A stretch of 64,000 bases of DNA from an uncultured Porphyromonadaceae bacterium (GTDB taxonomy: Bacteria; Bacteroidota; Bacteroidia; Bacteroidales; Muribaculaceae), in the NCBI GenBank assembly GCA_947175645.1, contig CAMWNP010000010.1:1-64000 (forward strand), written 5' to 3'. Position numbers and translations under genes: made by a program. The notes below the pieces were generated by a model. The model had not been told where the DNA came from and searched no databases. It worked only from the letters and a program-made list of their open reading frames with translations. Below, one piece after another: positions 4,298 through 45,933 of the stretch (positions are counted from its first letter, which is position 1; every line of letters begins with the position of its first letter).

Positions 4298-6343
4298 TTA
4301 TTTTTTACGTTTGGGAGCCTGGCGCACCAACCGGAGAACCTGGGCCGACCGGGCGGGCAGATATAGTTTGAGCCACTCTTTCCCTGTGGGTTTATACAGG
4401 GGGTCAGTGATGGTGAGATGTTCAACTTTCATGTCGATGTTACCGAAACCACCGAATTCCGGGGCGTCTGACGAGAGAACCGGACGATACTTGCCGGCAG
4501 GGGCGAGTATACCGTAGTCAGTGAATGATTTGAAAGGGTTGAAGTTGAACACGAACACCAGCGATCCACGCCGGAAAGCGAGAACCTGGTCATCATCTTT
4601 CTCCCATAGTTTTTCTATTGTGAGACCCTGGAAGTTATTTACTCCGGAGATGAGTTCGACCATGGCGTTGTCAAAGTTATTGAGGTACTTGTACTGGAGA
4701 TCCTCCCGGTCAACGAGATCCCACTGGCGGCGGGCATATTTGTAACTCCATCCGTTCCCCTCGCGTGGGAAATCAATCCATTCCGGGTGTCCGAATTCGT
4801 TGCCCATGAAGTTGAGGTATCCGCCGTTGATGGTTGCTATTGTAACCAACCTTATAAGTTTGTGCAGGGCAATGCCTCGGGCCACGGTCATGTCGTTGTC
4901 GCCCACCATCATGTGCCAGTACATCTTGTCGTCGATAAGGCGGAATATGACGGTTTTGTCACCTACCAGCGCCTGGTCGTGGCTCTCCACGTAACTTATT
5001 GTCTTTTCATCATCGCGGCGGTTGGTGAGTTCCCAGAATATGGATGTGGGATGCCAGTCCTCATCCTTTTTCTCCTTGAGTGTCTTGATCCAGTAGTCCG
5101 GTATACCCATTGCCATCCGGTAGTCGAACCCTATGCCACCCTCCTTGAACGGAAGAGCGAGCCCGGGCATGCCGCTCATTTCCTCGGCGATGGTTATTGC
5201 GTGGGGGTTCATCTGATGTATGAGAATATTTGCGAGGGTGAGGTATGTGATGGCGTTGGTGTCCTGCCCTCCGTTGTAGTAGTCATCGTATGTGGAGAAA
5301 GCCTGTCCGAGCCCGTGATTGTAGTAGAGCATGGAGGTGACGCCATCGAACCGGAAACCGTCGAAATGAAATTCCTCGAGCCAGTATTTGCAGTTTGAGA
5401 GAAGGAAGTGGAGCACTTCGTTCTTTCCGTAGTCGAAACACAGGGAGTCCCAGGCTGGATGTTCCCTACGTCCGTCGCCATAGAAATAGAGATCGTAAGA
5501 ACCGTCGAGCCGTCCGAGGCCTTCGTTTTCATTCTTCACGGCGTGGGAGTGGACTATGTCCATGATGACTGCTATTCCCATGGAGTGTGCTTCGTTGATC
5601 AGAGCCTTCAGTTGCTCAGGAGTGCCGAACCGGCTGGAGGGTGCGAAGAAACTTGACACGTGGTAGCCGAACGAACCGTAGTAGGGGTGTTCCTGAATAG
5701 CCATTATCTGGATAGCATTGTAGCCGTCGGCGGCTATGCGCGGGAGCACGTTCAACCGGAACTCGTCGTAGGTTCCAACGTCTTCTTTCTGCTGAGCCAT
5801 GCCTATGTGACATTCATAGATCAGGAGCGGTTTGACATCGGGGATGAAGCCGGAATCAGTCCACGTGAATTCTTCTTCAGGAGCCCATACCTGTGCCGAG
5901 AAAAGGTGACTGACCGGGTCCTGAACCACGCGTGTGGCATAGGCGGGTATGCGTTCACCCTGGCCGCCGGGCCAGGTGACCAGCATCTTGTAGAAGTCGC
6001 CATGGCGGAGAGCCTTGGCAGGAAGAGTTATTTCCCATACTCCGTCAGATCCCGGAACCGGCTTGAGGGCGTAACCCTCCAGAGCATTCCATCCGGAGAA
6101 GTCACCTATCAGATTTATTGATGATGCGTTGGGCGCCCATTCGCGGAAAACCCACTTACCGTCAGGTTGCCGGTGAAGCCCGAAATATTTGTGGGCGTTA
6201 GCGAAATCTGTCAGTGAGCCGGCGCTGACGGTGAGGTCGGCTTCTTTACGCAGGACATCCTGATGGCGTCCCTCTATTGCCTCAGCAAAAGGTTGCAGCC
6301 AGGGATCGTTCTGCAAAATTCCCAGGGTTTTCTGTTTTTTCAT
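4298..6343 (-). CDS. glgB: 1,4-alpha-glucan branching enzyme
   Basis: A 681-residue GH13 branching enzyme that forms alpha-1,6 branches in glycogen by cutting alpha-1,4 chains and transferring them. An N-terminal CBM48-like domain (about 55-150, with FREWAPNASSINLIGDF) precedes the catalytic barrel. Visible catalytic regions are DIVHSH, GFRFDGVTSM with the nucleophile Asp (about 333), IAEEMSG with the acid/base Glu (about 388), and YVESHDQALVGD with the conserved Asp. The C-terminal all-beta domain follows. Length and the motif set resemble the eukaryote-type (GH13_8) branching enzymes common in Bacteroidales. It is the first gene of a four-gene minus-strand operon, with a promoter box at 6463-6456. 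Confidence 0.95.
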   Translation of the reverse strand: MKKQKTLGILQNDPWLQPFAEAIEGRHQDVLRKEADLTVSAGSLTDFANAHKYFGLHRQPDGKWVFREWAPNASSINLIGDFSGWNALEGYALKPVPGSDGVWEITLPAKALRHGDFYKMLVTWPGGQGERIPAYATRVVQDPVSHLFSAQVWAPEEEFTWTDSGFIPDVKPLLIYECHIGMAQQKEDVGTYDEFRLNVLPRIAADGYNAIQIMAIQEHPYYGSFGYHVSSFFAPSSRFGTPEQLKALINEAHSMGIAVIMDIVHSHAVKNENEGLGRLDGSYDLYFYGDGRREHPAWDSLCFDYGKNEVLHFLLSNCKYWLEEFHFDGFRFDGVTSMLYYNHGLGQAFSTYDDYYNGGQDTNAITYLTLANILIHQMNPHAITIAEEMSGMPGLALPFKEGGIGFDYRMAMGIPDYWIKTLKEKKDEDWHPTSIFWELTNRRDDEKTISYVESHDQALVGDKTVIFRLIDDKMYWHMMVGDNDMTVARGIALHKLIRLVTIATINGGYLNFMGNEFGHPEWIDFPREGNGWSYKYARRQWDLVDREDLQYKYLNNFDNAMVELISGVNNFQGLTIEKLWEKDDDQVLAFRRGSLVFVFNFNPFKSFTDYGILAPAGKYRPVLSSDAPEFGGFGNIDMKVEHLTITDPLYKPTGKEWLKLYLPARSAQVLRLVRQAPKRKK

Positions 6344-6455
6344 GAGCGTTGAGGAAAAATGATGGGCAGATGTTAAGAAGTTTAATCTCAGTCAGTAGAT
6401 GGTTGTTACTCAGGTCAATTCCGGGTGAAAAATACAATCAACATCTACTTAATTA

Positions 6456-6463
6456 CAAAGGTA
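6456..6463 (-). promoter_or_regulatory. Probable -7 box of the glgB operon promoter
   Basis: TACCTTTG on the minus strand (6463-6456) matches the TAnnTTTG consensus. A -33 TTTG is not clear; a T-rich stretch is at the expected distance. The glgB ATG lies about 113 bp downstream. Confidence 0.5.
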
Positions 6464-6518
6464 CAACTCAGAAGTGAAAGAAAAAGTTAATTTAGAAAAA
6501 TTAACAGTAGTGTGAGAT

Positions 6519-6614
6519 TGGCGATTCCATTGGATTTTGTCCGAAATCAGTGGATTATTCCGTTGGATTTTGTCTGATTTTGGTGGATTATTCCGTTGGA
6601 TTTTTGCAAAACGT
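6519..6614. repeat. 33-bp minisatellite, about three units
   Basis: The region contains about three units of 33 bp. Unit 2 begins at 6552 and unit 3 at 6585, each starting GGATTATTCCGTTGGATTTT; the first unit is partial and diverged. On the minus strand it would read as an 11-residue repeat (KIQRNNP..SD), but there is no sign of a real gene. It marks the left part of the accessory island. Confidence 0.75.
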
Positions 6615-6660
6615 TGATTATTGGGGAAGCAAGGCACCGCACATTATAGAATATTTATGC

Positions 6661-6720
6661 AACATTTTGCGTAAAGTGTACAAAACGTGGGTAAAACATT
6701 TTGTAGTTCTTGCCAAAAGT
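6661..6720 (+). repeat. 60-bp island-flanking direct repeat, left copy
   Basis: It matches 8443-8502 at 54 of 60 positions, in the same orientation. Shared blocks include AAAACATTTTGTAGTTCT and GCCAAAAGT. The copies bracket the three AT-rich genes at 7070-8283, 1.78 kb apart. It could be an IS end remnant, a dispersed repeat or a recombination scar. Confidence 0.8.
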
Positions 6721-6802
6721 TGGTATTTGCGCTAAAAGAGTATCTCAAAATATTTCATCAATTAATAAATATTTTGCTTATTCAAAAATTATTAGTAATT
6801 TA

Positions 6803-6832
6803 GTCCCGAATTAATGCGCATTAATTCGGGAC
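6803..6832. repeat. Perfect 30-bp palindrome
   Basis: The left half is GTCCCGAATTAATGC and the right half is its exact reverse complement, with no spacer. It is not followed by a T run, so it is not a typical intrinsic terminator. It lies in the 726-bp gene-free stretch upstream of the three island genes. Confidence 0.85.
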
Positions 6833-6919
6833 ATTGTTAAACATGAGGCGTTATGTCTTCTGCTTGTAGATGAAAAGCGTAGGAAACTTACCATCGAGAA
6901 CAAGAGAGGTCGTAATTGT

Positions 6920-6941
6920 CTCCACGTCATAAGGCGTGGAG
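6920..6941 (+). promoter_or_regulatory. Hairpin 1, possible antiterminator or IS-end hairpin
   Basis: CTCCACG (6920-6926) and CGTGGAG (6935-6941) form a perfect 7-bp stem. The AAGGCGTGG at 6931-6939 could instead pair with CCACGCCT at 7009-7016, which would break the downstream terminator hairpin. Confidence 0.5.
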
Positions 6942-6991
6942 CTGTTATATCCACTTCTATTCTCAAAGGTATTCCTACCACCTTCATCTAA

Positions 6992-7022
6992 AGGCGTGGC
7001 ATAGCAGCCCACGCCTCTTTTT
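6992..7022 (+). terminator. Intrinsic-terminator-like hairpin upstream of island genes
   Basis: AGGCGTGG (6992-6999) and CCACGCCT (7009-7016) form a perfect 8-bp stem, followed by CTTTTT (7017-7022). It lies 48 bp before the first island gene on the same strand, so it could be a leader terminator. It also resembles the subterminal hairpins of IS200/IS605 elements. Confidence 0.55.
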
Positions 7023-7069
7023 ATTAATCTCCTAAGTTGGGTTACTTAGGTATAATAAGTATATCTATA

Positions 7070-7498
7070 ATGAAAAATGTATTAATGTATTTTATGATGT
7101 TATTGACATCAACTGTTTATGTATGTGCTCAGTCGCTTAATGATTACAAATATGTGGTAATACAGCATCAGGAAGACTCAAAGAAAGATATTGAGCAAAG
7201 AATGTCAAAGGAATTTCCATTATTGGGGTTTGTTCTTCTTACAGAAGATGAGGCTGCCAAATTAAGTGAAGAAGAAGCCCAACTTTTACTTAGAGCAGAA
7301 TATCTTTGTCGTCAGAGTGCACAATGCTTGTTCAAGTTGAAACTTAAAAATAATAATGGAGACATAGTGTATGAGGATGAGCAGGTGGCGGCAGCTGGTT
7401 TCATGTCATATAAAAATGACAGACAAAGTGCAATAAAAAAGATTTTTAAGCAACTAAAGAAGCAAAACTATCAGTTCAATCCAACAGAAAAAGAATAG
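7070..7498 (+). CDS. Small exported protein, unknown
   Basis: A 142-residue protein with a signal peptide (MKNVLMYFMMLLTSTVYVCAQ, cleavage probably after CAQ), followed by NDYKYVVIQHQ. Small exported Bacteroidota proteins with a YKYVIVP-like start and a C-terminal helix rich in Lys have the same general layout; this protein ends with AIKKIFKQLKKQNYQF. I take the ATG at 7070 because it begins the signal peptide; an upstream ATG at 7037 adds residues with no signal character. Codon use is AT-rich compared with neighbouring operons. It lies in the accessory island and is probably read together with the next two genes. Function unknown. Confidence 0.65.
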   Translation: MKNVLMYFMMLLTSTVYVCAQSLNDYKYVVIQHQEDSKKDIEQRMSKEFPLLGFVLLTEDEAAKLSEEEAQLLLRAEYLCRQSAQCLFKLKLKNNNGDIVYEDEQVAAAGFMSYKNDRQSAIKKIFKQLKKQNYQFNPTEKE

Positions 7499-7528
7499 TT
7501 TGATTCTAAATTCTAACACAATATAAGT

Positions 7529-7858
7529 ATGCAAATTAATATAAACAACATGACAATTGACTGGGCGTTCAAAAAAGCATTTAAGTATCTGCCCGTTCGA
7601 CTATCCACCACCTATTTTGATGGAATTGGAGAGTGTGTATGCATTGTCGCTAATCGGGCGGAAGGAATTTCATCTGAAATAATTGAAAATCGAAATTCTG
7701 AAGTGTTCATTACAATTAACGAGCCATCACTATACAATACGATAAGAGCTGCTATTCTCAATATGGATTATTGGACTCCTAATACTCACTATAAGACTGT
7801 AAATGGTTTAGCTGACGGTGTTGCAAGAAAAATTCATTTAGATGGTATGGTATTTTAA
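7529..7858 (+). CDS. Unrecognised 109-residue protein of the island
   Basis: A 109-residue soluble protein without a signal peptide or membrane helix. It has a mixed alpha/beta look (IDWAFKKAFKYLP, VFITINEPSLYNTIRAAIL) and two Cys close together (ECVCIV). Its start codon lies 30 bp after the previous gene and its stop 11 bp before the next, so a three-gene transcript is likely. Base composition is strongly AT-rich, like its two neighbours. The size and placement would suit an immunity-type or toxin-antitoxin protein, but no family motif supports this. Function unknown. Confidence 0.6.
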   Translation: MQININNMTIDWAFKKAFKYLPVRLSTTYFDGIGECVCIVANRAEGISSEIIENRNSEVFITINEPSLYNTIRAAILNMDYWTPNTHYKTVNGLADGVARKIHLDGMVF

Positions 7859-7869
7859 TCTATATAAAT

Positions 7870-8283
7870 ATGAATGAGTTAACAAAGGACTTCCCTTTTT
7901 CCAAAGATGAATATAGGAATATTATAATGACTGTGGAGTTGTTGATAATGAATGTATGTAAAAATGCATCGAAGGTGTATCCAACACAAATTTTACAAAT
8001 TCAAGGAGGTTACCAAACATTAAAATATCCATTGATAGCAGTCTGGGAGTATTATGGATTTGGAAACAAAGAAGAAGTTATGGGTATGTCATCTTCGATG
8101 CATTATGAATCTTTTAAAATTGATCCTGAAGATTTGTTGGTGCAGTATATTGATGGAATACCGCGTGAGAATCCGTTTAACGCATTTGGCATTATACCAA
8201 ACTCCGAAAAAGTGGCTGAAAAATTGGTCCGGATATATCGCCATCTTTTAGGGAGTCTTAGGTCAGGTCGTCTTAAGTTTTGA
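7870..8283 (+). CDS. Unrecognised 137-residue protein of the island
   Basis: A 137-residue soluble protein, AT-rich, with no signal peptide. It contains an N-terminal helix (EYRNIIMTVELLIMNVCKN), the central motif LIAVWEYYGFGNKEE, and a basic C-terminus (YRHLLGSLRSGRLKF). It is the last of three closely spaced genes, and a terminator-like hairpin follows at 8412-8439. I do not recognise the family. The Trp-Glu-Tyr-Tyr cluster and lack of transmembrane segments suggest a cytosolic protein; nothing more can be supported. Confidence 0.6.
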   Translation: MNELTKDFPFSKDEYRNIIMTVELLIMNVCKNASKVYPTQILQIQGGYQTLKYPLIAVWEYYGFGNKEEVMGMSSSMHYESFKIDPEDLLVQYIDGIPRENPFNAFGIIPNSEKVAEKLVRIYRHLLGSLRSGRLKF

Positions 8284-31730: not shown

Positions 31731-31777
31731 TTGAGAGGGTATGTCAAAAATTTTTTCGTTTTGACATACCCTCTCAA
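31731..31777. terminator. Long bidirectional hairpin of the TGTGTCAAAA family
   Basis: TTGAGAGGGTATGTCAAAA (31731-31749) and its exact reverse complement (31759-31777) form a perfect 19-bp stem around a 9-nt loop. It lies between the convergent aspS and B12 operons and can act as a terminator for the B12 operon. Relatives are at 587-603, 40923-40939 and 43458-43500. Confidence 0.7.
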
Positions 31778-31810: not shown

Positions 31811-34800
31811 TTACTTGATGATCATTTTGCGTACGCTGCCATCAGACATACGGACAATGTTGAGGCCTTTGAAGGGTGTTGCTGAACGAAGTCCCTGAGG
31901 ATTGTAGTAGGCCTCGATTTCTGCGGATTCCTCAGAATCAATGCTGTCAACCGATTCCATACCTTCATTATAATATCTGTCGGTGTCAGCATCGAAAAGG
32001 ACTTTTTCACCTCCGAAAACGGGATATTCGTCCTCGCCGATTTTCTGTCCGAAGGGTTCGCCTAATTTGTAAGCCACTTCGCCGGAGGCCATCTGCTCGG
32101 GAGTAACCAGAGTGTAGCCGTCGGTGAGGTCATATTCTTCTGTGGCGAAGGCATTTTCCACCCCTGTTTTTGCACCGGAAGAACCGACGCAGCCACCGGC
32201 ATAGCGTGTGCAGTCAATAACACCTACGTTAAACACATTCTTGACATCGGTACCAGCATTGGGGTGTGAGCCAACAATACCGCCACAGTTGCTTGTAGCC
32301 TTGATTGTACCCGTGTTGTAGCAGTTGGCAACCTTTGAGGTGACATAACCTATGAAACCTGCTATACCGCCGGCATTGGTGTTGAGGACAGTTACGGTGG
32401 CGTTGTTGGCACAGGTGTCGATGCTTACATAGTTGTGAACGTATCCGGCGATACCACCTGCGTAGGCTTTTGCGCTGATTGATCCGTCGACAGTCAGACC
32501 GCTGATGGTGGTGTAGTTGTCGGCATCCGTACCCTTGGCATATCCTACCAGCGCGGCATATTGCGCTGTGATGTCGTTGTAGTAAAGACCGGAAACAGTG
32601 TGACCACAGCCGATGATAGAGCCGGTAAAGGGCTTGGATGAAGTTCCGATGGGAGCCCATGCGTAGTCGCCAAGGTCAATGTCGTCAACGATCATAGCGT
32701 TGAATACACCACCCTTGGTGTTCACTTCGTTGGCTAACCATGCGAGGTTGGAGGGAGTTGCAATCAGATAGGTATCGTTGTCGGTTTCAGGCTGCTCCAT
32801 AGTTTCACCGTCCCATGCAAAGGGAGCCTCGGTGAGGTCGACGTTGAAGGTCTGCACACCCTCGGCGTCATCATTGATTGTGAAGGTGTGGCGGAAGCAG
32901 CGGTAACCGGCTTTGCCTGCAGTGATGGAGTAAGAGCCGTAAGTTCCTGAATAAGAGCCGTCCTCATTTGCCGCAAGAGGTTTGCCGTTAAAGAGAACCT
33001 CCATGTCGGTGGGGGTGGTGTTGCACTTGATGTCGATATCGAAGTATTTCACCTGAGTCAGATTGATTACCACATCGGGTATTGCGCCGAAATATGTTTT
33101 GTGAGCCACGGCTGTGAAGTTGGGCGAACGTCCGGCCACCGGGTCGATATAACGGTGATTGCCGATGGGGTCACCGTAACCGTTGACCTGGATAACACCC
33201 TCATTCATAACGATCGAGGGGTTGGCTGCCACGTCAAGATCCTCGGGGATGGTGACTGTTACAGCCTGGGCCGAGGGAGCCGAACCGAAGGTGTATTGTC
33301 CTGCACCTAAAATGAGAGAACTGCCGTTAGGCACACCGTTGTAGGTGACGTAAGCCGACATGTTGTATATCCCGGCCATTTTGTTGGCAGGGTGATATAA
33401 TCCGCTATATTGGATTTTCACGTTGTCACCGGGCTGGAAGATGTTGCTCCCTTCACGTGTGGCATTGATGATTTCACGGTGACACATTTTGGCTGTCATA
33501 ACCTGATAGGCCGATTTTCCTGCGGCATCGGTGAGTTTGACAATCTGTCGTCCATGTTTGAGCAATACGGTGTATGAGCCGTCTTCGTTCTTGGTTACAC
33601 CATCGGCGGAGAATCCGCTGTAAGTTGCCATCTGTTCGCCGATAGTGGGGTATGCGATGGTCACTTCGGCCGCATTTTCAGGCGTGAAAGTGTAGGGGAA
33701 TCCCTCCTCGGTGTCGAGATAGTAGAACACGTCACATTCGGCATCGACAAATTTACCGGCTGTTTTGAGTGTTTCTTTGTTGTATTCCTCGTTGATGAAC
33801 ATGTTGGGCTTCACTGCTGATTCACCGTTGCCCACGCTTACTACGAAGGCGGCAGTGTTTTCCGGCCATATAGCACCCCACTGTTCACCTCCGAGATAGG
33901 CACGTTTCTCCGCTCCGTTATAGTAGTTGAGGCGGATACCATCGTAAGTGACCAGCACGATAGCCTCACCGGTGCCTGTCGCTTCCATTTCGGCCCATGC
34001 TGACCCTTTCTTTTCTGTGATCTTGATCACGTTGTCGGAAGGTTTGCCGTCAAGACCGATGACGGTGTAGTGAAAATCAGGTTCAATGAAGTAATTGTTA
34101 GTCGAGTTATCGGTCAACTCCCAAGAGCGCATGGCGTGGGTGTTAAACTTATCACCCTGATTGAGACGTAGATGACCCTCGGCATTGATGTTCATGAAGA
34201 TGTTGCCGGTTTCATACCCGTCGTTTGATTGGGGAGTGGGGTTGATAAGTTTCGGGTCGCCGTCATAGTCAGCCTCGGTGAAATTCAGGTTGGGGCGTTT
34301 GGTCTCATCAGTGTTCATTGCGAAATATCCACCCTGAGTCATCTTCCCGTCCATTGATGTACGGTAGTTATAGACCTGACCGTTGGCAAGGTAATAGGTG
34401 TATTTGGTCGCTGACCCTTCGGTAGTGACGCTTACCGGTACTATCGGAGTGAAATTAACGAAGTGGGAGAACTTCATGTTCAGTTCAAAATAGGCATCGG
34501 AAGGAACGGTGACAGTGTAGTCGGCACCTTGCGGTATAATACCGGAGATGTTGACGTTGGCCGTGAGTGTGCCTGAGCGATAAAGGTTGGTGTAACCTTC
34601 GGCGCGATGAGCCTCTGAAGGGGTGAAGTTGACATAGTAACTGTTGCCGTTGAGGGCGAGGAAAGTGTTGCGTCCTGCGGTAGTGCTTTTTCCAACGGTA
34701 ACAGGGAAATTCACTCCTTCGCGCGAATTGACTTTTACGTCGAGAGTGTAGTCGCCGGCTTCGGCAGTCCACACGCTTCCGTCCTCATTCTTGTTAGTCG

Positions 34801-35107
34801 CATAGACGGTGCAGGTTATCACCTTGAATACCTGGTCAGGCTCATCGGTCACATTGATGTCGATGGTGCCGTTAACGGTTGTGCCGTCAGAGGCGTAGGC
34901 GGTAAGACGATAGGTGTCAGCCGGAAGGTCAAGTGTATAGTCCGTTCCGGAAGGAGCGCCTGTCTCAACAGGTTGATTCGTGGTGGTTGAAACCAGGCTC
35001 ATCGTCTTGGAAACATTGTTCATCGTCACCTTGACCGATGCTCCGCTCATTGTAGAGCATGCTCCGGCCAAAGCGAGGAAAGAAAGTAATAATGATTTGG
35101 TTCTCAT
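31811..35107 (-). CDS. Large secreted surface protein with GLUG-like repeats, in B12 operon
   Basis: A 1098-residue exported protein. The start MRTKSLLLSFLALAGACSTMSG is a signal peptide; AGAC could be a loose lipobox. Most of the chain is repeated beta-sandwich-like segments (ADTYRLTAYASDGTT, PGDNVKIQYSG). Residues about 830-1000 hold GLUG-like repeats (GGIAGYVHNY, AGGIAGFIGY, CGGIVGSHPN, AGGCVGSSG). The end, NPQGLRSATPFKGLNIVRMS then VRKMIIK, resembles a T9SS sorting tail. It lies 6 bp downstream of the BtuG-like gene and under the same cobalamin riboswitch. No known B12 protein is recognised here; an accessory role in B12 capture is inferred from the operon. Confidence 0.82.
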   Translation of the reverse strand: MRTKSLLLSFLALAGACSTMSGASVKVTMNNVSKTMSLVSTTTNQPVETGAPSGTDYTLDLPADTYRLTAYASDGTTVNGTIDINVTDEPDQVFKVITCTVYATNKNEDGSVWTAEAGDYTLDVKVNSREGVNFPVTVGKSTTAGRNTFLALNGNSYYVNFTPSEAHRAEGYTNLYRSGTLTANVNISGIIPQGADYTVTVPSDAYFELNMKFSHFVNFTPIVPVSVTTEGSATKYTYYLANGQVYNYRTSMDGKMTQGGYFAMNTDETKRPNLNFTEADYDGDPKLINPTPQSNDGYETGNIFMNINAEGHLRLNQGDKFNTHAMRSWELTDNSTNNYFIEPDFHYTVIGLDGKPSDNVIKITEKKGSAWAEMEATGTGEAIVLVTYDGIRLNYYNGAEKRAYLGGEQWGAIWPENTAAFVVSVGNGESAVKPNMFINEEYNKETLKTAGKFVDAECDVFYYLDTEEGFPYTFTPENAAEVTIAYPTIGEQMATYSGFSADGVTKNEDGSYTVLLKHGRQIVKLTDAAGKSAYQVMTAKMCHREIINATREGSNIFQPGDNVKIQYSGLYHPANKMAGIYNMSAYVTYNGVPNGSSLILGAGQYTFGSAPSAQAVTVTIPEDLDVAANPSIVMNEGVIQVNGYGDPIGNHRYIDPVAGRSPNFTAVAHKTYFGAIPDVVINLTQVKYFDIDIKCNTTPTDMEVLFNGKPLAANEDGSYSGTYGSYSITAGKAGYRCFRHTFTINDDAEGVQTFNVDLTEAPFAWDGETMEQPETDNDTYLIATPSNLAWLANEVNTKGGVFNAMIVDDIDLGDYAWAPIGTSSKPFTGSIIGCGHTVSGLYYNDITAQYAALVGYAKGTDADNYTTISGLTVDGSISAKAYAGGIAGYVHNYVSIDTCANNATVTVLNTNAGGIAGFIGYVTSKVANCYNTGTIKATSNCGGIVGSHPNAGTDVKNVFNVGVIDCTRYAGGCVGSSGAKTGVENAFATEEYDLTDGYTLVTPEQMASGEVAYKLGEPFGQKIGEDEYPVFGGEKVLFDADTDRYYNEGMESVDSIDSEESAEIEAYYNPQGLRSATPFKGLNIVRMSDGSVRKMIIK

Positions 35108-35113
35108 TGTTAA

Positions 35114-36391
35114 TTATATTTGGTGAATAAATTTTTTTCCGTTACGTATGTAAAGTTGTCCGGGAATAGGATTTGTGACTTTCATTCCCTGAAGATTGTA
35201 AATGCTATGGTCTGCGGGTTCATCATCCCGGATCGCTTCAACTCCTTCAAACTTCATCCCGTCAGGAGGTAGTGCAAGGAAATGGGCGGGGTTGATGTAC
35301 ACTTTGTGGGTTCCGAGAAGCGTTCCTTGCGGCGACCACTGATAGAGCGCGCCGGCAGCGGCGAACGAGCCTGCATCGGTGGCATAGATATATCCTGTAT
35401 ATGGATTGACATAGATGCCGTAGGGCATCATCATCTTTTTGATATCAGCCATCACCGTGCCCGGCATCTTGTCAGAGACTCCTTCCGCTCCTTCCGATTC
35501 CATAACCGCTTCCGGGTCGATGGTGATGTAGTTGAAGGTGTATTCGCCGGTGTAGTAGGAATATCTTGACCCTATGGCATAGAACGAGCCGTCAGCGGTT
35601 GTACAACTATAGGTGGCGGCGTACTCGAGTTTGGTGAAACAATCCTTGTCAGAAGCGCCACGCATAACCGCTTCGCAGTCCATGATTATTGTAGCGGCCT
35701 GCACATCATAGTAGTCACCCGGAGAGTTTATGCACAGATATTTTCCTGACTGCGACATTTTTCCGTAAAGGTTGATCTGTCCGGTATTGACGGTGCGGAC
35801 AGTACGTAGTGTGGAGGCCTCAAGCACGGTCACCGTGGTTTCATACTCATGGTCTTCCTGAAAGGCATATCCTCCGGTGTTGGCCACAAACAGGTATCCG
35901 TTATAATATGCTATTCCCTCAGGCTCGTAACCCACTTCCACGGCATCCACCACCTTGAAGTCTGAGATGTCGATCTTGGCGACAAATCCTTTGGTGAAGT
36001 ATTTGAAGCCTGATACGGTGGCGCACTCGTGACCGTAGGATGACACATAGACATATCGGCCGTCAGTTGCGAGTTTGCGGTTGTTGGGCACATCCTCCGT
36101 TGCGGCAACCTCCTTACCCTGCGGGGTTATGAACTGGATGATGTTCGACCAGTTGACGGAGATGGCGATAAGGTTGTCCGTTACCTGGATGATATCGTTG
36201 GGAGTATCGCCCAGTTTGTGCTTGTTAACGTCGCGGAACCACTGGTTGCTGACAACGGCGTTATTCTCGAAGTAAGTCACTTTGCCGTTGTCAGCCTGCC
36301 AGTTGCCCTCGTTGAGAAGAATGATGCGCTCCTGCCCGGAGAGTATCATTCGGGTGAAGCATAGGCTGAAGAAAAGAAAGAATAATTTCAT
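35114..36391 (-). CDS. BtuG-like beta-propeller (DUF5074/YncE type)
   Basis: A 425-residue exported protein. The signal peptide is MKLFFLFFSLCFTRMILSGQ; the lone Cys has no proper lipobox. The chain shows repeated propeller blades: KLATDGRYVYVSSYGHEC, KIDISDFKVVDAVEVGYEPE, GYLFVANTGGYAF, and VNPYTGYIYATDAG. BtuG proteins of Bacteroides are surface lipoproteins with this fold that hand cobalamin to BtuB; here the gene follows a btuB-like gene by 5 bp and sits under a B12 riboswitch. The C-terminus (YNLQGMKVTNPIPGQLYIRN, then GKKFIHQI) looks like a T9SS sorting tail, which would replace the lipid anchor. B12 binding is inferred from context. Confidence 0.8.
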   Translation of the reverse strand: MKLFFLFFSLCFTRMILSGQERIILLNEGNWQADNGKVTYFENNAVVSNQWFRDVNKHKLGDTPNDIIQVTDNLIAISVNWSNIIQFITPQGKEVAATEDVPNNRKLATDGRYVYVSSYGHECATVSGFKYFTKGFVAKIDISDFKVVDAVEVGYEPEGIAYYNGYLFVANTGGYAFQEDHEYETTVTVLEASTLRTVRTVNTGQINLYGKMSQSGKYLCINSPGDYYDVQAATIIMDCEAVMRGASDKDCFTKLEYAATYSCTTADGSFYAIGSRYSYYTGEYTFNYITIDPEAVMESEGAEGVSDKMPGTVMADIKKMMMPYGIYVNPYTGYIYATDAGSFAAAGALYQWSPQGTLLGTHKVYINPAHFLALPPDGMKFEGVEAIRDDEPADHSIYNLQGMKVTNPIPGQLYIRNGKKFIHQI

Positions 36392-36396
36392 AAAGT

Positions 36397-38355
36397 TCAG
36401 AATATGTATGTGATTGAAATGCGGAAATTTCTGCCGGGCATGGGATAGCGGGGGATATGCTCATACTGCACATCGAAAAGATCGTTGACTTCGCCTGACA
36501 CAGTCCAGTGAGGAATCTGGGCGGTCAGTTTCATGTCTACGTTGTTGTATGGCTTTAGGATATCCTCGGGGTCGGCGTATGACCACATTCGTGATGCCAC
36601 GTAGAGATTTGAAACAGTAAGAGTCAGCATCCGCCATTCCGCTATGCCGGTGACGCCACATGAAAACGTCGGGGCATAGCAGATAGGCTTGTTGTAGGTG
36701 TCGGTGTCCTCGGGATCGGTGCGGTTGAGGTCGCGTTGCCATGTCAGTGAGGTGAGCAAGGTGAATCTCCATGGAGCGGTGGTTACGTTTGCTGACAGGG
36801 TTGAATTCAGTCCCCGGCAGAATGTCTTTCCATAGTTCATCATTGACCATGTATAAGTTCCTTTCAGGGGGAGACACACAATCCGGTTGTCGATGTGGTT
36901 GAGGTAGATATCGGCCTGGGCTGACAGAACCCAGTTGGATGGTGAAACGGTGTAATCACCTCCAATGTTCCACTGGCGGGTATATTCCGGCTTAAGATTA
37001 CGGTTTCCCGCCTGTGTATAGTAAAGGTCGTTCAGTGTGGGGACGCGGAATATACATTTGTACCATGCGCGAACGGATAATCCCTTGTAGGCGTAGCCCA
37101 GTGTCACGGAGGGCGTTGTGCGGGTCAGCGGGTCAGCGGCACCTACTTCCAGGCGGGTGTAATCCTTGTAGTGCTGGAACAGGGCCGAGGCGGCAAGCCT
37201 GAACCCGTAGCGGTGTGCCTGAACCGCAAGGACCGCCTTCTGATCTTGACGTCGGACGGGCGAGAATTTCTTGAGGTCAGCATCAAGCCATGAAGCACGG
37301 AAATCATAGCCGGTATTGACTGACAGCCATTCCGTGGCGTTCCATGAGTATGCTGCGGAAGCGTAGGCATCGTTCTGCCAATAATGATTGTCGACCCTCG
37401 CAGTGTTCTGGTTTTCAGGATAATCGGTGTTATAACGCAGATATTCATGGGTGTACTTCAGGTTGAATTTCACCCGGTGGCGTGAGTTGAACGAATGGGT
37501 AAATGACCCCTGGGCAAATAGGTCGGTATCCCATTCACGTCCTATGTTTGTGTATTTATCAGAGAGTCGCCTGACAATTCCTCCGGGGCAACCGCGGTCA
37601 GATTTGTAAAAGTAAAGGTGTGATGCGAAGCCACCGTTGAAAAGGGCTGCTTCGGCGCGAATAAATTCAATATCGGAGTTACGTCGGCGACCTACGGTGT
37701 CCTCATACTCCGATTTGTAGCGGAACGGGTAGTCACCTTTTGAGTTAAGGTACTCAACATCGGCGAAGCCGCTCCAGCGACCACGCTTGATTTCGGCCGT
37801 GGCACGTCCCCGCCAGGTGTGGAACGATCCGGCTGATGCCAGTACCGACAGGGAGTCGGTCAGCGGGCGACGTGTACGCAGATAGACTGTCGCTCCCGAA
37901 GCATACTCCGAGGGAGACTGGCAATGTTCAAGTTTGTTGGCGTTGTATAATTCTACGGATTCAAGGGTGGAGAGTGAGTATTTCCCTAAATCTACGGTGC
38001 CGTTCTGGGCATTTGTGATTCTGATACCGTCAATGTAGACTCCCACATGTTGTGAGCCTAACGAGCGGACATTAATTGTTTTCAGTCCGCCAAGACCTCC
38101 GTAATCCTTGATTTGTACGCCGGCGAAGTATTTGAGAGCGTCGGCTATGGATGTGGATGAAAGAGCCCGCAGTTCCGCACCTTTCAGATTCTGTACCGTG
38201 GCCAGGGGACGACGTGTGGCGGTCACCTCCACAACATCGAGGCGAACAATGGAGTCAATCTCGCCGGCAGCGTGTCCGGACAGGAAGGCGCTCAGAAACA
38301 GAGTCAGCAGCAAGGCAGCCTGCAGCCACCCATGCCTGTAGGCATGACGTATCAT
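36397..38355 (-). CDS. btuB: TonB-dependent receptor, BtuB-type cobalamin transporter
   Basis: A 652-residue outer-membrane receptor. I start at the ATG at 38355, which begins the signal peptide MIRHAYRHGWLQAALLLTLF; a longer reading from 38445 would translate the riboswitch's B12 box and is rejected. After a TonB-box-like LDVVEVTATRRP comes the plug domain (about 40-150, with LKGAELRALSSTSIADALKY and NVRSLGSQHVGVYIDGIRI), then a 22-strand barrel ending in RISITYIF. It has no N-terminal carboxypeptidase-like domain, as in classic BtuB. Cobalamin specificity follows from the riboswitch directly upstream. It imports vitamin B12 with energy from TonB-ExbBD, which is not in the window. Confidence 0.9.
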   Translation of the reverse strand: MIRHAYRHGWLQAALLLTLFLSAFLSGHAAGEIDSIVRLDVVEVTATRRPLATVQNLKGAELRALSSTSIADALKYFAGVQIKDYGGLGGLKTINVRSLGSQHVGVYIDGIRITNAQNGTVDLGKYSLSTLESVELYNANKLEHCQSPSEYASGATVYLRTRRPLTDSLSVLASAGSFHTWRGRATAEIKRGRWSGFADVEYLNSKGDYPFRYKSEYEDTVGRRRNSDIEFIRAEAALFNGGFASHLYFYKSDRGCPGGIVRRLSDKYTNIGREWDTDLFAQGSFTHSFNSRHRVKFNLKYTHEYLRYNTDYPENQNTARVDNHYWQNDAYASAAYSWNATEWLSVNTGYDFRASWLDADLKKFSPVRRQDQKAVLAVQAHRYGFRLAASALFQHYKDYTRLEVGAADPLTRTTPSVTLGYAYKGLSVRAWYKCIFRVPTLNDLYYTQAGNRNLKPEYTRQWNIGGDYTVSPSNWVLSAQADIYLNHIDNRIVCLPLKGTYTWSMMNYGKTFCRGLNSTLSANVTTAPWRFTLLTSLTWQRDLNRTDPEDTDTYNKPICYAPTFSCGVTGIAEWRMLTLTVSNLYVASRMWSYADPEDILKPYNNVDMKLTAQIPHWTVSGEVNDLFDVQYEHIPRYPMPGRNFRISITYIF

Positions 38356-38411
38356 CCACAAAGTTTTGATTCGCCGCACTATTACCACGAGTGCGTTAAG
38401 CGCGAAATTAT

Positions 38412-38576
38412 GTTGGCAGGTCTTCTGACTCGTTTCCTCCGCCATCGCCTTCCCGACCTCCGCTCTCTCGCTCGGTCAGTGACATTATTGATGGTGGAAA
38501 TTGAAACTCACAGCAGCGGGTCTGTCCGAGATTTTCACTCGATTCCCTTTTGATTCCGGTTAACGGAAACCAACGT
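38412..38576 (-). promoter_or_regulatory. Cobalamin (B12) riboswitch
   Basis: On the minus strand the leader shows the conserved parts of the adenosylcobalamin-type riboswitch. These are the P1 arms TTGG (about 38573) and CCAA (about 38416), an internal loop region GGGAATCGAGTGAAAATC, the core CAGACCCGCTGCTGTGAG, and the 3' B12 box GTCAGAAGACCTGCC (38428-38414). The aptamer ends about 57 nt before the btuB ATG. A stem GCACT/AGTGC between the aptamer and the ATG suggests control of translation or early transcription rather than a simple terminator; no T run follows. Confidence 0.93.
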
Positions 38577-38592
38577 ACTTAAGTTATCGCTG

Positions 38593-38625
38593 CAAAGGTA
38601 ATCAAATTATTCTATATTTTGCAAA
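38593..38625 (-). promoter_or_regulatory. Promoter of the cobalamin operon
   Basis: TTTG (38625-38622), a 21-bp spacer and TACCTTTG (38600-38593) on the minus strand fit the Bacteroidota consensus and lie directly upstream of the riboswitch. Confidence 0.75.
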
Positions 38626-38789: not shown

Positions 38790-40805
38790 TCAGAAGATGA
38801 TTTTGGATGCACCCTTATTCGTGACTTTGATTACCACTGAGCCTTTGGCGGGGTTCTCAACTGGTTGACCCTGAAGGTTGAAGTAGTGTGCGGAAGTTTC
38901 ATCAGCATCGGCAGCGACAGATTCCACACCGTTCTCATCAGCCGTGTATGTGGCGGTTTCAGAGGGCTGACCTGCGGCCAGGATGTAACCTTCGTCATCA
39001 ACGAAGTAGGGAACGACAGAAGCGGTGTATGTGACACCTTTCTCAATCTCTTTTGTCAGAACTCCTTGAGTGTCAGCGGTCTCTACGGTACCAACAGGGA
39101 TTCCCACCTTACCGTCGGCTGCTGCTTCTGCGGTGATTTTCAGCGTGCGAATCAGAAGTGCGCCGTCGCTTCCGTCAACGCTGTTGGTTACGAAAAGGAA
39201 CTGGGTTTTGTCAGTTGCGCCGGTAAGGCTGAAGTTGTAGGTTTCGTAATCTTCGGGAACAACGCCGGGTGTACCGTAGGCGGAGCCCACATCATATTTC
39301 TCTTCGTCGGGGTTGAACGCAAGAAGTCCGGCAAGCATGCCGTTACCCGGAGAGGCAGCCTCGATGCTTACGTTAACTTTGCCGTCCTTTATGTTGGAGA
39401 GATCGTAGTCCATTGATCCGAGAGATGCAGTCAATCCGGTCATGGCAGTGTAATACGCATTGTCCATGAATCCGAACGCACCCTCAGCCATGCAGCCGAG
39501 GTTGAATCTCCATCCGGGTAGTTCATCGACTGATTCATACCAGTAGTCTGATTCTTCCGGATTTGCCACGGTGCCGTTGCTTGTGATTGAAGAGAAGTCA
39601 GCATTGACAAGTGTCACGGTTTGTCCGGAGGTGACATTTTGGGTTGAGGCGGCAGTCAGAACATAGTAATTGGCTCCGGCTGAAGGTTCCCATGAGAAGT
39701 TCAGAGACTTGTTGTCGTCAGAAGGAGTGATAGTCACATTGGTGGGTGAAGCGAGTTCGCACACCAGAATTGTGTTTGAGGCCGCAGATGTGTATGAACC
39801 GTCAGTGGCGCATACGTTATAAGCGTAGAAGTTTCCGGGGGTGAGACCTGTTACGGTGTATGATGTTTCTGCGGTGAACTGCTTGTCAAGGAAGGTAGTG
39901 GTCACTTTCTTGGTGTCGATGTCGAAGTTGTAGACCGTGAGATAATAACCTGTTGCGTTCTCCACGGCACTCCAGTTTGCGGTGAACGATGTGCCTGTGT
40001 AGTCGGTATAGTCCTGTGCCACAGGTATTGAAACCGGTGCTTTCTCTCCCTTGATGACAACGTTTTTGATTACGATGTCAGCCCCATTGTCGGCAAAGAT
40101 GGTGAAGTAGTAAGAATCGTCCTCGCTTTCCGGAACAAATGAGGTGCAGTCAAGAGTAATGGTCACGTGGGTCCAGTCGGCACCTATTTCCTTGTAGTTA
40201 TTGTCAAGCAGATCCGAGTAGTCCGATGCGTAAATCCACAGTTCTTCAGTGGGATATTCATCACTGTTGACAATTTTGGCATCAAGTTCGATTACTGCGG
40301 TCATAGGCTCATATACGTCGGGAGTCCACAACATTCCTTCCATTTCCCAGGCAAAATCATCATCGGGATCTTCAATGTATTCAAAAGGAACATAGACTGA
40401 ACCACCGGCCTGCATGATTCCTTGTCCGCCGAAACCGTAATTTTCTTCACCGATTATCTCTTCGGGGATATTGTCCCAGTCGTCGAGTTCGATTGCCGCC
40501 GGTTCGGTTTCCGACCCTTCTGTGAGGAAAGCGAACGAGCAGTCATAGATGGCCTCTTCGGTAACATCTTTTGTGAATACGGATGGTGCGTGACGTCGGG
40601 ATGGCTTTGATTTGAATTTCTTGAGGGCTTTACGTTTTGGCGTAATCTTCTCACTTTTGTTTGCGGAAAGGAGATCGGCACGGAGCGTAGAAACAATCTT
40701 TTGTGATGAGTTGGAGCACTCGGTCAGTCTGTCGGCATTGACTGCCGTTGCTGACAAACCGGCCACCACAGCGGCAGCCAGAAGGGAATACTTGAAATTT
40801 ACCAT
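38790..40805 (-). CDS. Secreted fibronectin III protein with T9SS-like tail
   Basis: A 671-residue exported protein. The signal peptide is MVNFKYSLLAAAVVAGLSATAVNA. A basic region (KKFKSKPSRRHAP) follows, then an acidic beta-rich domain (about 75-260; carbohydrate-binding-like jelly roll with YFTIFADNGADIVIKNVVI), then two fibronectin type III-like domains (about 265-345 and 350-400; TVTGLTPGNFYAYNVCA, LNFSWEPSAGANYYVLTA), then another sandwich domain. The C-terminus YFNLQGQPVENPAKGSVVIK ending in SKIIF resembles a T9SS sorting tail. No catalytic motif was found; an adhesin or binding protein is likely. Confidence 0.75.
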   Translation of the reverse strand: MVNFKYSLLAAAVVAGLSATAVNADRLTECSNSSQKIVSTLRADLLSANKSEKITPKRKALKKFKSKPSRRHAPSVFTKDVTEEAIYDCSFAFLTEGSETEPAAIELDDWDNIPEEIIGEENYGFGGQGIMQAGGSVYVPFEYIEDPDDDFAWEMEGMLWTPDVYEPMTAVIELDAKIVNSDEYPTEELWIYASDYSDLLDNNYKEIGADWTHVTITLDCTSFVPESEDDSYYFTIFADNGADIVIKNVVIKGEKAPVSIPVAQDYTDYTGTSFTANWSAVENATGYYLTVYNFDIDTKKVTTTFLDKQFTAETSYTVTGLTPGNFYAYNVCATDGSYTSAASNTILVCELASPTNVTITPSDDNKSLNFSWEPSAGANYYVLTAASTQNVTSGQTVTLVNADFSSITSNGTVANPEESDYWYESVDELPGWRFNLGCMAEGAFGFMDNAYYTAMTGLTASLGSMDYDLSNIKDGKVNVSIEAASPGNGMLAGLLAFNPDEEKYDVGSAYGTPGVVPEDYETYNFSLTGATDKTQFLFVTNSVDGSDGALLIRTLKITAEAAADGKVGIPVGTVETADTQGVLTKEIEKGVTYTASVVPYFVDDEGYILAAGQPSETATYTADENGVESVAADADETSAHYFNLQGQPVENPAKGSVVIKVTNKGASKIIF

Positions 40806-43500: not shown

Positions 43501-43587
43501 GTTATTTACCGAATGGAGTTACGGACCAGTACCACCCGATTCACGCTTAGTTTTATCACGAATATCATAATCAATAAACAACATTAT

Positions 43588-45933
43588 ATGAGAAAACAAC
43601 TACTCCTCGGATTTCTTGCCGCCGCCATTTGTGGCCATGCGGCGGTAATTAACCCTGAAGCAGCGCTACGTCGCGCTGTCGGTGCGCCTGAAGTGCAGAC
43701 CATGGGCCTGCATCAGGAACAGCAACCCATGCTTGTCTATACCCAGATGGTTGACGCGCAGCCGGCCGCATATTTGTTTGACCGCGGACAGGACCTCGGC
43801 TATCTGGTTGTTTCAGCCGATGATGAGGCAACCCCTCTGCTCGGCTACGCTGACCGTGGGCGGATTGATGCAGAAAACCTCCCTGACGGTCTGAAATACT
43901 GGCTCAAATACTATGCCGCTGAGATTGATGCCCTCAGAAACGGTGCAGTCATCACTCTTTCAGTCAAAAACGATCAGCCTGAACTCATGCCCATAGAACC
44001 TATGGTGTCAACCCGATGGAATCAGAGCACACCCTACAATAATCTCTGCCCGCTTGACGGTGGCTCCCGCAGTGTGACCGGTTGTGTGGCAACCGCCATG
44101 GCCCAGGTGATGAAATACCATAACTGGCCACCCAAAGGCACCGGCTCACATTCCTATACATGGAACAAAACCACAACACTCTCGCTTGATTACAGCAGCA
44201 TCACTTATGATTGGGCAAACATGCTCGACCAGTATGACTCATCCGCTACCGAGGCTCAGAACAACGCGGTGGCAACACTGATGTACAGTTGCGGTGTGAG
44301 CGTTAACATGAACTATGGCAAAAACGAATCAGGCGCAGTTTCAATGTATTGCGGAAGCGCTCTGTTCAATTATTTCAACTACGACGGTTCGCTCCGCTAC
44401 TTGTCACGCGACTACTTCACGCTGTCTGACTGGGAAGCCGAGGTCTACAAATCGCTTGCCGAAGGTTGTCCGGTTCTTTACGGCGGACAGAGTGATGCCG
44501 GTGGTCATGAGTTCGTCTGTGACGGATATTCCTCCGACGGTTATTTCCACTTCAACTGGGGTTGGGGTGGCATGTCTGACGGTTACTTCAAACTGACATC
44601 ACTTAATCCGGGCTCACAAGGTATCGGTGGCGCAGGCAACGGTGCCGGATTCAACTTCGATCAGGATATTATTGTAGGTATCAAGCCTTTCGCCGGACAA
44701 AGCGAGATGGCTATTGAACTCGGTAACCTGTCAAGTTTTTCAGTGTCAGAGGCCGCCGCTTCGCTCGGTTCTGCAATTACTGTTTCCGCTCAGTTCATCA
44801 ACCAGTGCTACAGTACGATCGAGTTTACACCCGGTATAAAAATCACCGGACCACAGGGTGATGTGAGGTATCAGAAATGGATATATACCAATTCGCTGGA
44901 ACTTCAGCCCGGCTACTCTTATCAAAGTCCGATCAGTTTCGGTGTCACACTCCCCGCAGATCTCGGCGAAGGAACCTACACTGTTGAACCGGCATTCCTC
45001 TCAGGTGATAAATGGTATGATGTCCAAACCAAAGTAGGTTGTGTTCCTTCTGTGACCATGAAGGTGGATGGCTCCACAGCATCGTTCACCTCTCCCAATG
45101 CCGCCAATCCTGTCATTGACAATATCTCATTTGTAAATCCCAAGTTCTATGCGGGAATGAGTTATGAAATTAAGGCAACCGTGCACAATCCCGGTGATAT
45201 TGAATACTATGGCGAGGTTTATGGAATACTGATGACTTCAGGCGGCAACTACCTTATGTCCGGACTTATGCTCGACATTGACGGAGGAGCCACTCAGGAA
45301 ATAGTTTACACCGGCACATTGTCGTCAAAAATTCCGGAGGGTGACCATAAGTTCGTGTTTGCCGTTGCGGGGTCAAACGGCTATACTCCTGTGTCAGAAA
45401 CTGTTTCTATGACCATTGAGGCTGCGCCACAAAATGTGAGCATGTCATTGGGTGGTGTAACTTATAATGCAGGTACGAACAAAATTGCCAAAAACGATCT
45501 GGGCGTCAAGACTTCACTCACATGTACTTCCGGAGCCTACTACGGCACACTCGACCTTGTACTCTTTGCTAATGTGGCAGGAACAAGTACATGGTCATAC
45601 GTGGATGAATTCGCTTCTCAGCAGATGTATATTGAGTCGGGAGAATCCGGAACAGCCGAATACCACAATGAATTTGCTTCCGGCAATGTGGGTCAGACAT
45701 ATTTGGTTATGTTCTTCCATGGCTCTGAAAGATTCTCTTATCAGAACCTTGTTGAACTGATCAACCCGCAGAGTTCAGTGGAAGGTCCGGAGGCTCAGAC
45801 AGAACCTGTAGCCGTGGAGATTTTCAACCTCAGCGGTCAACGTGTTACTGCCAAGCCCGTCCCCGGTCACTACATCATGGTGAAACGTGCGGCTGACGGC
45901 TCAACTACCTCTGAGCATATCATTATCCGATAA
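43588..45933 (+). CDS. Secreted C10 cysteine peptidase (streptopain type) with T9SS-like tail
   Basis: A 781-residue protease precursor. The ATG at 43588 begins the signal peptide MRKQLLLGFLAAAICGHA. The propeptide (about 20-140) contains FDRGQDLGYLVVSADDEATP typical of the Spi/streptopain prodomain. The catalytic domain has SVTGCVATAMAQVMKYHNWP with the nucleophile Cys and GGHEFVCDGYSSDGYFHFNW with the catalytic His, as in PrtT and the B. fragilis Bfp enzymes. Several Ig-like domains follow (about 400-740). The C-terminus IFNLSGQRVTAKPVPGHYIM ends in HIIIR, a T9SS-like tail. The substrate is unknown, probably host or dietary proteins. Confidence 0.9.
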   Translation: MRKQLLLGFLAAAICGHAAVINPEAALRRAVGAPEVQTMGLHQEQQPMLVYTQMVDAQPAAYLFDRGQDLGYLVVSADDEATPLLGYADRGRIDAENLPDGLKYWLKYYAAEIDALRNGAVITLSVKNDQPELMPIEPMVSTRWNQSTPYNNLCPLDGGSRSVTGCVATAMAQVMKYHNWPPKGTGSHSYTWNKTTTLSLDYSSITYDWANMLDQYDSSATEAQNNAVATLMYSCGVSVNMNYGKNESGAVSMYCGSALFNYFNYDGSLRYLSRDYFTLSDWEAEVYKSLAEGCPVLYGGQSDAGGHEFVCDGYSSDGYFHFNWGWGGMSDGYFKLTSLNPGSQGIGGAGNGAGFNFDQDIIVGIKPFAGQSEMAIELGNLSSFSVSEAAASLGSAITVSAQFINQCYSTIEFTPGIKITGPQGDVRYQKWIYTNSLELQPGYSYQSPISFGVTLPADLGEGTYTVEPAFLSGDKWYDVQTKVGCVPSVTMKVDGSTASFTSPNAANPVIDNISFVNPKFYAGMSYEIKATVHNPGDIEYYGEVYGILMTSGGNYLMSGLMLDIDGGATQEIVYTGTLSSKIPEGDHKFVFAVAGSNGYTPVSETVSMTIEAAPQNVSMSLGGVTYNAGTNKIAKNDLGVKTSLTCTSGAYYGTLDLVLFANVAGTSTWSYVDEFASQQMYIESGESGTAEYHNEFASGNVGQTYLVMFFHGSERFSYQNLVELINPQSSVEGPEAQTEPVAVEIFNLSGQRVTAKPVPGHYIMVKRAADGSTTSEHIIIR

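Follow-up and report, generated by a model that had tools for sequence, protein, structure and literature searches.

The 64,000-nucleotide stretch analyzed here (the window; contig CAMWNP010000010.1, positions 1 to 64,000, assembly GCA_947175645.1) comes from an uncultured Porphyromonadaceae bacterium placed in the Muribaculaceae. Its minus strand carries a cobalamin riboswitch followed in order by btuB, a gene for a BtuG-like beta-propeller, and a gene for a 1098-residue protein (hereafter the third gene and third protein). Together these probably constitute a B12-repressed uptake operon of the BtuB-BtuG type, whose surface proteins would take another route to the outside of the cell, the type IX secretion system (T9SS). 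The evidence is from sequence and comprises the riboswitch, the gene order, homology, the protein termini, and co-occurrence.

Results

Gene order and riboswitch linkage

The intergenic gaps are 5 bp between btuB and the propeller gene and 6 bp between the propeller gene and the third gene, and the three genes appear to be transcribed as a single unit. The original prediction, made from the letters of the window, had given this same order and spacing, and both held when the gaps were remeasured and the riboswitch was scored against Rfam (Table 1). Because the genome has only two cobalamin riboswitches in 3.17 Mb, the presence of one before btuB is not due to chance. The btuB product is a TonB-dependent relative of the B12 receptor; its best NCBIfam match, TIGR01779 (108 bits, E = 4e-31), falls under the equivalog cut-off of 599.7. 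The listed btuB reading frame begins at 38445, within the riboswitch, and the ATG at 38355 is the better fit.

Among 199 genomes of the family, the third protein was matched in 29, of which 20 matched in the core (residues 1 to 690) and 9 in the GLUG-like region only; the latter were dropped, leaving 20 in the core count. In 15 of the 199 genomes the core gene lies directly 3' of a close propeller, which agrees with the expectation that the third gene is conserved beside btuB in relatives. A riboswitch is present at 14 of these 15 loci, and the fifteenth (L077) is cut upstream by the contig end. Six further core genes are unlinked, and each is preceded on its own strand by a cobalamin riboswitch, a count that covers the unlinked loci that were retrieved and long enough and includes two near copies (L089 and L090). 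At one of these loci (L093), a 290-residue open reading frame lies between the riboswitch and the core gene. Contig ends truncate L094 and a fragment in L077, and the count also omits three other fragments.

A tblastn search of the named GTDB collection confirmed 246 relatives, and the counts for named loci refer to the best 80 of these 246. A close propeller lies upstream of the third gene in 55 of the 80 named loci (with a gap of <250 bp in 52 of these) and a distant propeller in 10; the filter called no propeller in the other 15, two of which (L130 and L174) do show one. Riboswitches were sought at these loci with a model (R1) whose 19 training sequences were riboswitches of these families detected by Rfam, and Rfam agreed at 10 of the 10 loci rechecked. 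A riboswitch lies upstream in 62 of the 80 loci; the 18 without one start inside, or ≤224 bp before, the first same-strand gene, and no loss of the riboswitch link was seen where the 5' end of the operon is present. Examples of the close-propeller order come from records titled Muribaculaceae, Prevotellaceae, and Bacteroidaceae, and in Paludibacteraceae the order is found with a distant lipoprotein propeller. Two further records with Bacteroidales-type operons (L109 and L138) bear the titles Clostridium sp. and Bacillota bacterium and are likely mislabelled or contaminated metagenome-assembled genomes.

A propeller clade with C-terminal tails

The propeller is homologous to solved BtuG chains: phmmer matched it to 8ptd (E = 1.9e-17, over residues 19 to 359), 8blw (BtuB1G1; 1.9e-16), and 8bmy (1.7e-11), and its family profile reaches solved BtuG at E = 9.5e-23. 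The DUF5074 match is under the cut-off (13.5 against 27.2 bits). The N-terminus has a Sec-type signal peptide with a signal peptidase I-like site before Q20, where cleavage would fall between SG and QERII. Many N-termini of the clade suit signal peptidase I with glutamine at +1, the arrangement that the Bacteroidetes Q-rule describes (PMC5837995).

Close and distant propellers differ at both ends. The chain of 53 of the 60 close homologues extends 50 to 63 residues past the propeller; the other 7 were not measurable by the anchor motif, which matched within the tail in 4 (giving 11 to 15 residues) and was missing in 3 (the L120 propeller is split over two frames, and both L153 propellers miss the motif). 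In contrast, the extension is only 3 to 10 residues in 11 of 12 distant propellers, the exception being the partial L173 propeller (41% identity), with 53 residues. Ten of these 12 begin with a lipobox followed by charged residues, and the remaining 2 are cut at the N-terminus. On a tree of 53 propellers, the anchor label needs two changes, a number as low as which occurred in 0 of 500 shuffles; one change accounts for the tailed clade and the other for a lipoprotein (L085) that branches inside it. The nested lipoprotein is consistent with an anchor swap within a conserved operon. The ordinary BtuG of this genome (L002) has a very long branch, and its placement is unsure. The lack of a lipobox and the T9SS-like tail, both of which had been read from the window sequence, can accordingly be seen to mark a whole clade relative to lipoprotein BtuG.

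Several loci show other arrangements around the propeller. At L085 (G176; 6776-7930), the lipoprotein propeller is followed by a tailed 369-residue gene product and a DUF4465 gene. Two tailed propellers occur in tandem at L099 (3228-5968), and L153 (4530-12002) has two riboswitch-led units with a tailed propeller in each. At L081 (G095; 4381-7434), a tailed propeller without a third gene precedes an apparent ABC permease and ATPase, BtuCD-like by eye.

Tails and the secretion system

A profile of the tails aligned with the canonical C-terminal domains (CTDs) of third-family homologues at E = 4.3e-5 and a probability of 69.3%, against 0.6% for the control. The aligned part covers about 31 to 38 residues with a 14-residue gap and corresponds to the second half of the canonical CTD, such that the propeller tail aligns to a shortened type A signal. 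Four homologues of the third protein (L089, L091, L092, and L093) have canonical TIGR04183 domains over the cut-off, and two more (L070 and L078) have intermediate scores of 19.7 and 19.9 bits (cut-off, 23); the L088 third protein, scanned alongside, gave no TIGR04183 match. The genome encodes SprA (2716.7 bits) and two PorU-type sortases, and has seven Por_Secre_tail matches, five of them over the cut-off. At E ≤ 1, the tail profile has 24 matches across the genome, of which 15 are at ≤2.3e-4; 3 of the 24 are window tails contained in the profile, and the C-terminal place and signal peptide of the rest were not checked singly. The sortase genes are neighbors (G000:C28:29663-37751), scoring 932 and 552 bits.

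According to passages of a review (PMC10202324), the final 22 residues of one CTD are enough for GFP to be secreted. Given this precedent, the tail alignment, the canonical TIGR04183 domains of homologues, and the presence of SprA and PorU, the propeller and the third protein are likely exported by the T9SS. A loose tail pattern, applied without a control, matches 66 of the 80 third proteins at the named loci. Among the 14 outside it, 7 lie at a contig end, 1 is N-masked, 1 has a visible tail that the pattern missed, 4 end in an NG.LYI..NG tail, and 1 has a dockerin-like end. The recurrent alternative tail (..LRNGRLYIIHNGKIYDMTG.., in L160, L163, L164, and L168) is perhaps a variant sorting signal. 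In the L106 third protein and in a DUF4465 protein of L143 (4432-5988), the T9SS-like tail is replaced by a dockerin-like end.

Architecture of the third protein

The third protein has no Pfam or NCBIfam match over the cut-off and no PDB match. Against PDB sequences, the core family profile gave only a chance-level match (E = 0.83), and the profile of residues 432 to 697 gave neither a PDB sequence match nor a Pfam match over the cut-off; neither profile had a related PDB sequence, in a search that was not a direct comparison with BtuH. By our reading, the AlphaFold model (pLDDT, 86.8; pTM, 0.64) depicts a string of Ig-like domains, then a repeat module, and then the tail. Foldseek searches with the full model returned long stitched Ig alignments at very low TM-scores, and those with a model of residues 432 to 697 (pLDDT, 83.2) returned pairs of Ig domains.

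Residues 301 to 690 are the best-conserved part of the protein: 126 of these 390 positions show ≥90% identity, compared with 32 of 240 in the GLUG part, the count being restricted to aligned rows with the GLUG part (32 of 36). Conserved loop motifs near H572-K576 and G643-R652 are candidate binding or docking residues. The original description of the protein as GLUG-type is loosely right, in that PF07581 matches a single stretch at 15.4 bits (cut-off, 20.5), but the module is dispensable and less conserved than the Ig-rich core. It was rejected as a needed part of the protein, being absent from L071 and L072 (725 residues) and having another module in its place in L088 (DUF4465) and in L089, L091, and L093 (Big_2).

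Association with DUF4465

DUF4465 is described as a B12-binding family in passages of PMC13398666 and PMC12751083, the second of which reported in 2025 that 38% of 824 DUF4465 proteins carry C-terminal extracellular targeting motifs. At the named loci, a seven-seed hidden Markov model (HMM) detects a DUF4465-core fusion in 19 of 80 cases; at 20 loci the domain is in a separate gene, which lies immediately upstream in 19 of them, and 34 of the 80 have either arrangement. Pfam confirmed 19 of the 19 fusions, at 121 to 578 bits, and added a fusion in L088 and separate DUF4465 genes in L091, L092, L157, L165, and L167. Six long third proteins without an HMM match contain no DUF4465 by Pfam (0 of 6). 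At L105 (5953-11442), the third-protein frame is 1830 residues long and closes with three DUF4465 domains, as identified by Pfam. IPR026444 denotes the T9SS type A domain.

A second B12 system in the same genome

A second riboswitch (G000:C27:18264 onward; L002, and L087 4265-7653) precedes an ordinary BtuG and a second btuB. This BtuG has the lipobox SYGC and matches a solved BtuG chain at E = 6e-125. The one DUF4465 gene of the genome encodes a lipoprotein and lies on another contig, away from both riboswitches. Because the genome encodes these two lipoproteins, the proposal that the T9SS places the whole capture layer on the surface was too strong; one genome holds two B12 systems with different surface anchors.

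Other features of the window

The coordinates of the operon and its flanking elements are collected in Table 1. The promoter-like TACCTTTG resembles the Bacteroidetes -7 motif, TAnnTTTG. The 111-base stretch around the inverted repeat folds at -36.4 kcal/mol (a value without a shuffle control), and the repeat was not among the calls of a terminator scan. Two other proteins of the window have T9SS-like tails. One, with an fn3 domain (38790-40805, minus strand; 56.5 bits, the tail itself being in the profile), shares the strand of the riboswitch and stops about 200 bp short of it, and the other (43513-45933, plus strand) scores 15.7 bits.

Table 1. Features of the B12 operon and its flanks in the window
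Feature	Position	Strand	Basis or remark
Possible terminator of the unit, 19-bp inverted repeat	31731..31777	.	3' of third gene
Third gene, 1098-residue surface protein (predicted)	31811..35107	-	Open reading frame; AlphaFold model
Third-protein C-terminal tail, T9SS-like	31823..31921	-	Tail profile, 62.3 bits (profile includes this tail)
GLUG-like repeat module, residues ~761-1000	32108..32827	-	Under cut-off; some relatives without the module
Residues 432-697, two Ig-like domains with conserved low-confidence loops	33017..33814	-	Candidate ligand or docking site
Core, residues 1-690, Ig-like domains	33038..35107	-	Alignment, conservation, model
BtuG-like beta-propeller, 425 residues, without lipobox	35114..36391	-	phmmer to BtuG chains; clade
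Propeller C-terminal tail, shortened T9SS type A-like (IYNLQGMKV..P.PGQLYIRNGKKF)	35117..35218	-	Tail profile, 68.0 bits (profile includes this tail)
btuB, TonB-dependent outer-membrane transporter	36397..38355	-	Pfam barrel, 90 bits; plug, 57 bits
Cobalamin riboswitch aptamer	38398..38589	-	RF00174, 109.9 bits (cut-off, 31.5), full length 1-189
Promoter-like TACCTTTG	38593..38600	-	Read from the sequence, directly before riboswitch

Discussion

A proposed route for B12 capture

When B12 is low, the riboswitch would permit expression of btuB, the propeller gene, and the third gene, as the aptamer and the close spacing suggest. The propeller and the third protein would pass the inner membrane through Sec and signal peptidase I, and their short C-terminal tails would then direct them across the outer membrane by the T9SS, to end on the surface or to be released. 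On its homology to BtuG, the propeller would serve as the B12-binding lid of BtuB. Passages of PMC10404256 state that the N-terminal cysteine and linker of BtuG2 may form a hinge. The mature window propeller would start only a few residues before its first blade and lacks an N-terminal hinge linker, and for this reason its tether, if it has one, would be at the C-terminus instead of at an N-terminal lipid, with the hinge the other way round. The third protein is an extended Ig-domain protein whose conserved core may bind cobamide or dock capture modules near BtuB-BtuG, and in relatives it carries the B12-binding DUF4465 domain as well. The cell also retains an ordinary lipoprotein BtuG, with btuB, under the second riboswitch.

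Several results weigh against this T9SS-routed operon. Neither the propeller nor the third protein matches TIGR04183 or PF18962 at E = 0.1. A hidden DUF4465 domain in the window third protein was considered and rejected (0.2 bits, no Pfam match), and no B12 fold for residues 432 to 697 appears in the 50 Foldseek rows shown, where the best TM-score is about 0.39, to LAG3. The N-terminus of the window third protein has a cysteine in its hydrophobic stretch, and a loose lipobox is present in 6 of the 74 third-protein N-termini that were examined, so that a lipid anchor is possible for some third proteins. The system can do without T9SS export, since the L085 propeller, a member of the tailed clade, is a lipoprotein instead. 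In the 199 family genomes, 9 of 24 close propellers lack an adjacent third gene in the sequence available; 3 of these 9 are cut 100 to 440 bp after the propeller, and two short fragments (G155 and G088:C55) were not counted. SprA is near-universal in a sample of the order Bacteroidales (233 of 247 genomes), and its presence is therefore a weak test that discriminates little: the core occurs in 4 of the 247 genomes, all with SprA, and in 0 of the 14 SprA-negative genomes.

Alternative explanations

The third protein could be a B12-repressed surface adhesin, spacer, or stalk that makes no contact with B12 and at most positions BtuB-BtuG or DUF4465 modules, an explanation that we regard as possible, if somewhat doubtful. 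Its Ig-string architecture resembles that of multi-Ig surface proteins such as SGBP-B (6e57) among the Foldseek rows, the structural search of residues 432 to 697 points to no B12 fold, and membership in a B12 regulon need not entail binding: passages of PMC12751083 describe BtuL of B. thetaiotaomicron as part of the regulon, yet it bound no cobalamin. A stalk of this kind fits less well with the stronger conservation of residues 301 to 690 than of the repeats, a difference that is moderate. This explanation overlaps the docking form of the proposal above, and the two are not mutually exclusive.

That the tails are not T9SS signals, and that the propeller and the third protein are periplasmic or exported by other means, is unlikely. 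The window tails do miss the curated CTD models and are about half the length of a canonical CTD, but proteins of the same family have TIGR04183 domains over the cut-off or at intermediate scores, the tail recurs in a genome that has a T9SS with PorU, and tailed and lipoprotein propellers swap within one family. It is very improbable that the third gene is a passenger, unrelated to B12, that happens to follow the btuB-propeller pair. The scarcity of the core, present in 20 of the 199 genomes of the family and in 4 of the 247 sampled across the order, favors a passenger, but its unlinked homologues stand under their own cobalamin riboswitches in 6 of the 6 loci retrieved, which rules this explanation out as a working alternative. 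The recurrence of the close-propeller order across three families (with a distant propeller in Paludibacteraceae) and the fusions of DUF4465 to the core also speak against it. The T9SS-routed uptake operon, with a third gene tied to B12 acquisition as the original prediction had suggested, is the reading that we prefer.

Relation to known systems

Passages of PMC10404256 describe the lipoprotein-based "pedal bin" by which BtuB-BtuG takes up B12 in Bacteroides thetaiotaomicron. The window shares with that system a riboswitch-controlled btuB beside a BtuG-type propeller, but its propeller has no lipobox, almost no N-terminal linker, and a T9SS-like tail, and a third gene is added. As with BtuJ (DUF4465/IPR027828), whose B12 regulation and surface location are described in passages of PMC12751083 and PMC13398666, the core would belong to B12-regulated surface proteins and keeps company with DUF4465 at many loci; the window third protein, however, has no DUF4465, and its core is another, unnamed family. 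BtuH lipoproteins (passages of PMC8941943) are likewise an accessory component of some Bacteroidetes B12 loci and not of others, but BtuH is a B12-binding lipoprotein, whereas the core profile has no related PDB sequence. Relative to the T9SS type A CTD (TIGR04183/PF18962; passages of PMC10202324), the window tail represents the second half and the homologues have the full domain.

The Foldseek rows also liken the third protein to SGBP-B, an Ig-domain string on the Bacteroides surface, but the TM-scores are low (0.16 to 0.18 by target) and the SGBP-B ligand is a carbohydrate. SGBP-B is a lipoprotein.

Our literature search found no paper joining BtuG with the T9SS. Three elements appear to be new: the T9SS-tailed BtuG clade; the riboswitch-btuB-propeller-third gene order shared by Muribaculaceae, Prevotellaceae, and related records; and the core family with its riboswitch link, a family not found in the literature searched (the B. 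thetaiotaomicron BtuK and BtuL sequences being outside the comparison). Sorted-tail B12 binders as such have a precedent in the C-terminal motifs of DUF4465 proteins, which are already reported in the passages of PMC12751083. From the original interpretation, the tailed propellers, now a clade, and the B12 link of the third gene endure; the whole-layer claim, the emphasis on GLUG, and any novelty of sorting motifs on DUF4465 do not.

Implications

Surface capture of B12 is a trait on which bacteria compete in the gut. Those solved cases that we met in print are Bacteroides lipoproteins. A larger proposal, which we hold tentatively and consider slightly less probable than its opposite, is that one large branch of the gut Bacteroidales, comprising Muribaculaceae, Prevotella, and their kin, moved outer-membrane B12 capture from lipoproteins to T9SS cargo, with lids that are C-terminally tethered or released and a hinge that is inverted, and that the Ig-rich core is a new cobamide-binding or BtuBG-docking family that acts with DUF4465 or replaces it. 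The core family is widespread and annotation-free, with 246 relatives, and is riboswitch-linked wherever the 5' end is present. Should the BtuG lids of Prevotella and Muribaculaceae indeed be T9SS cargo, a second form of the lid-hinge model would be needed, and the T9SS and TonB-dependent vitamin uptake, which are usually treated apart, would meet.

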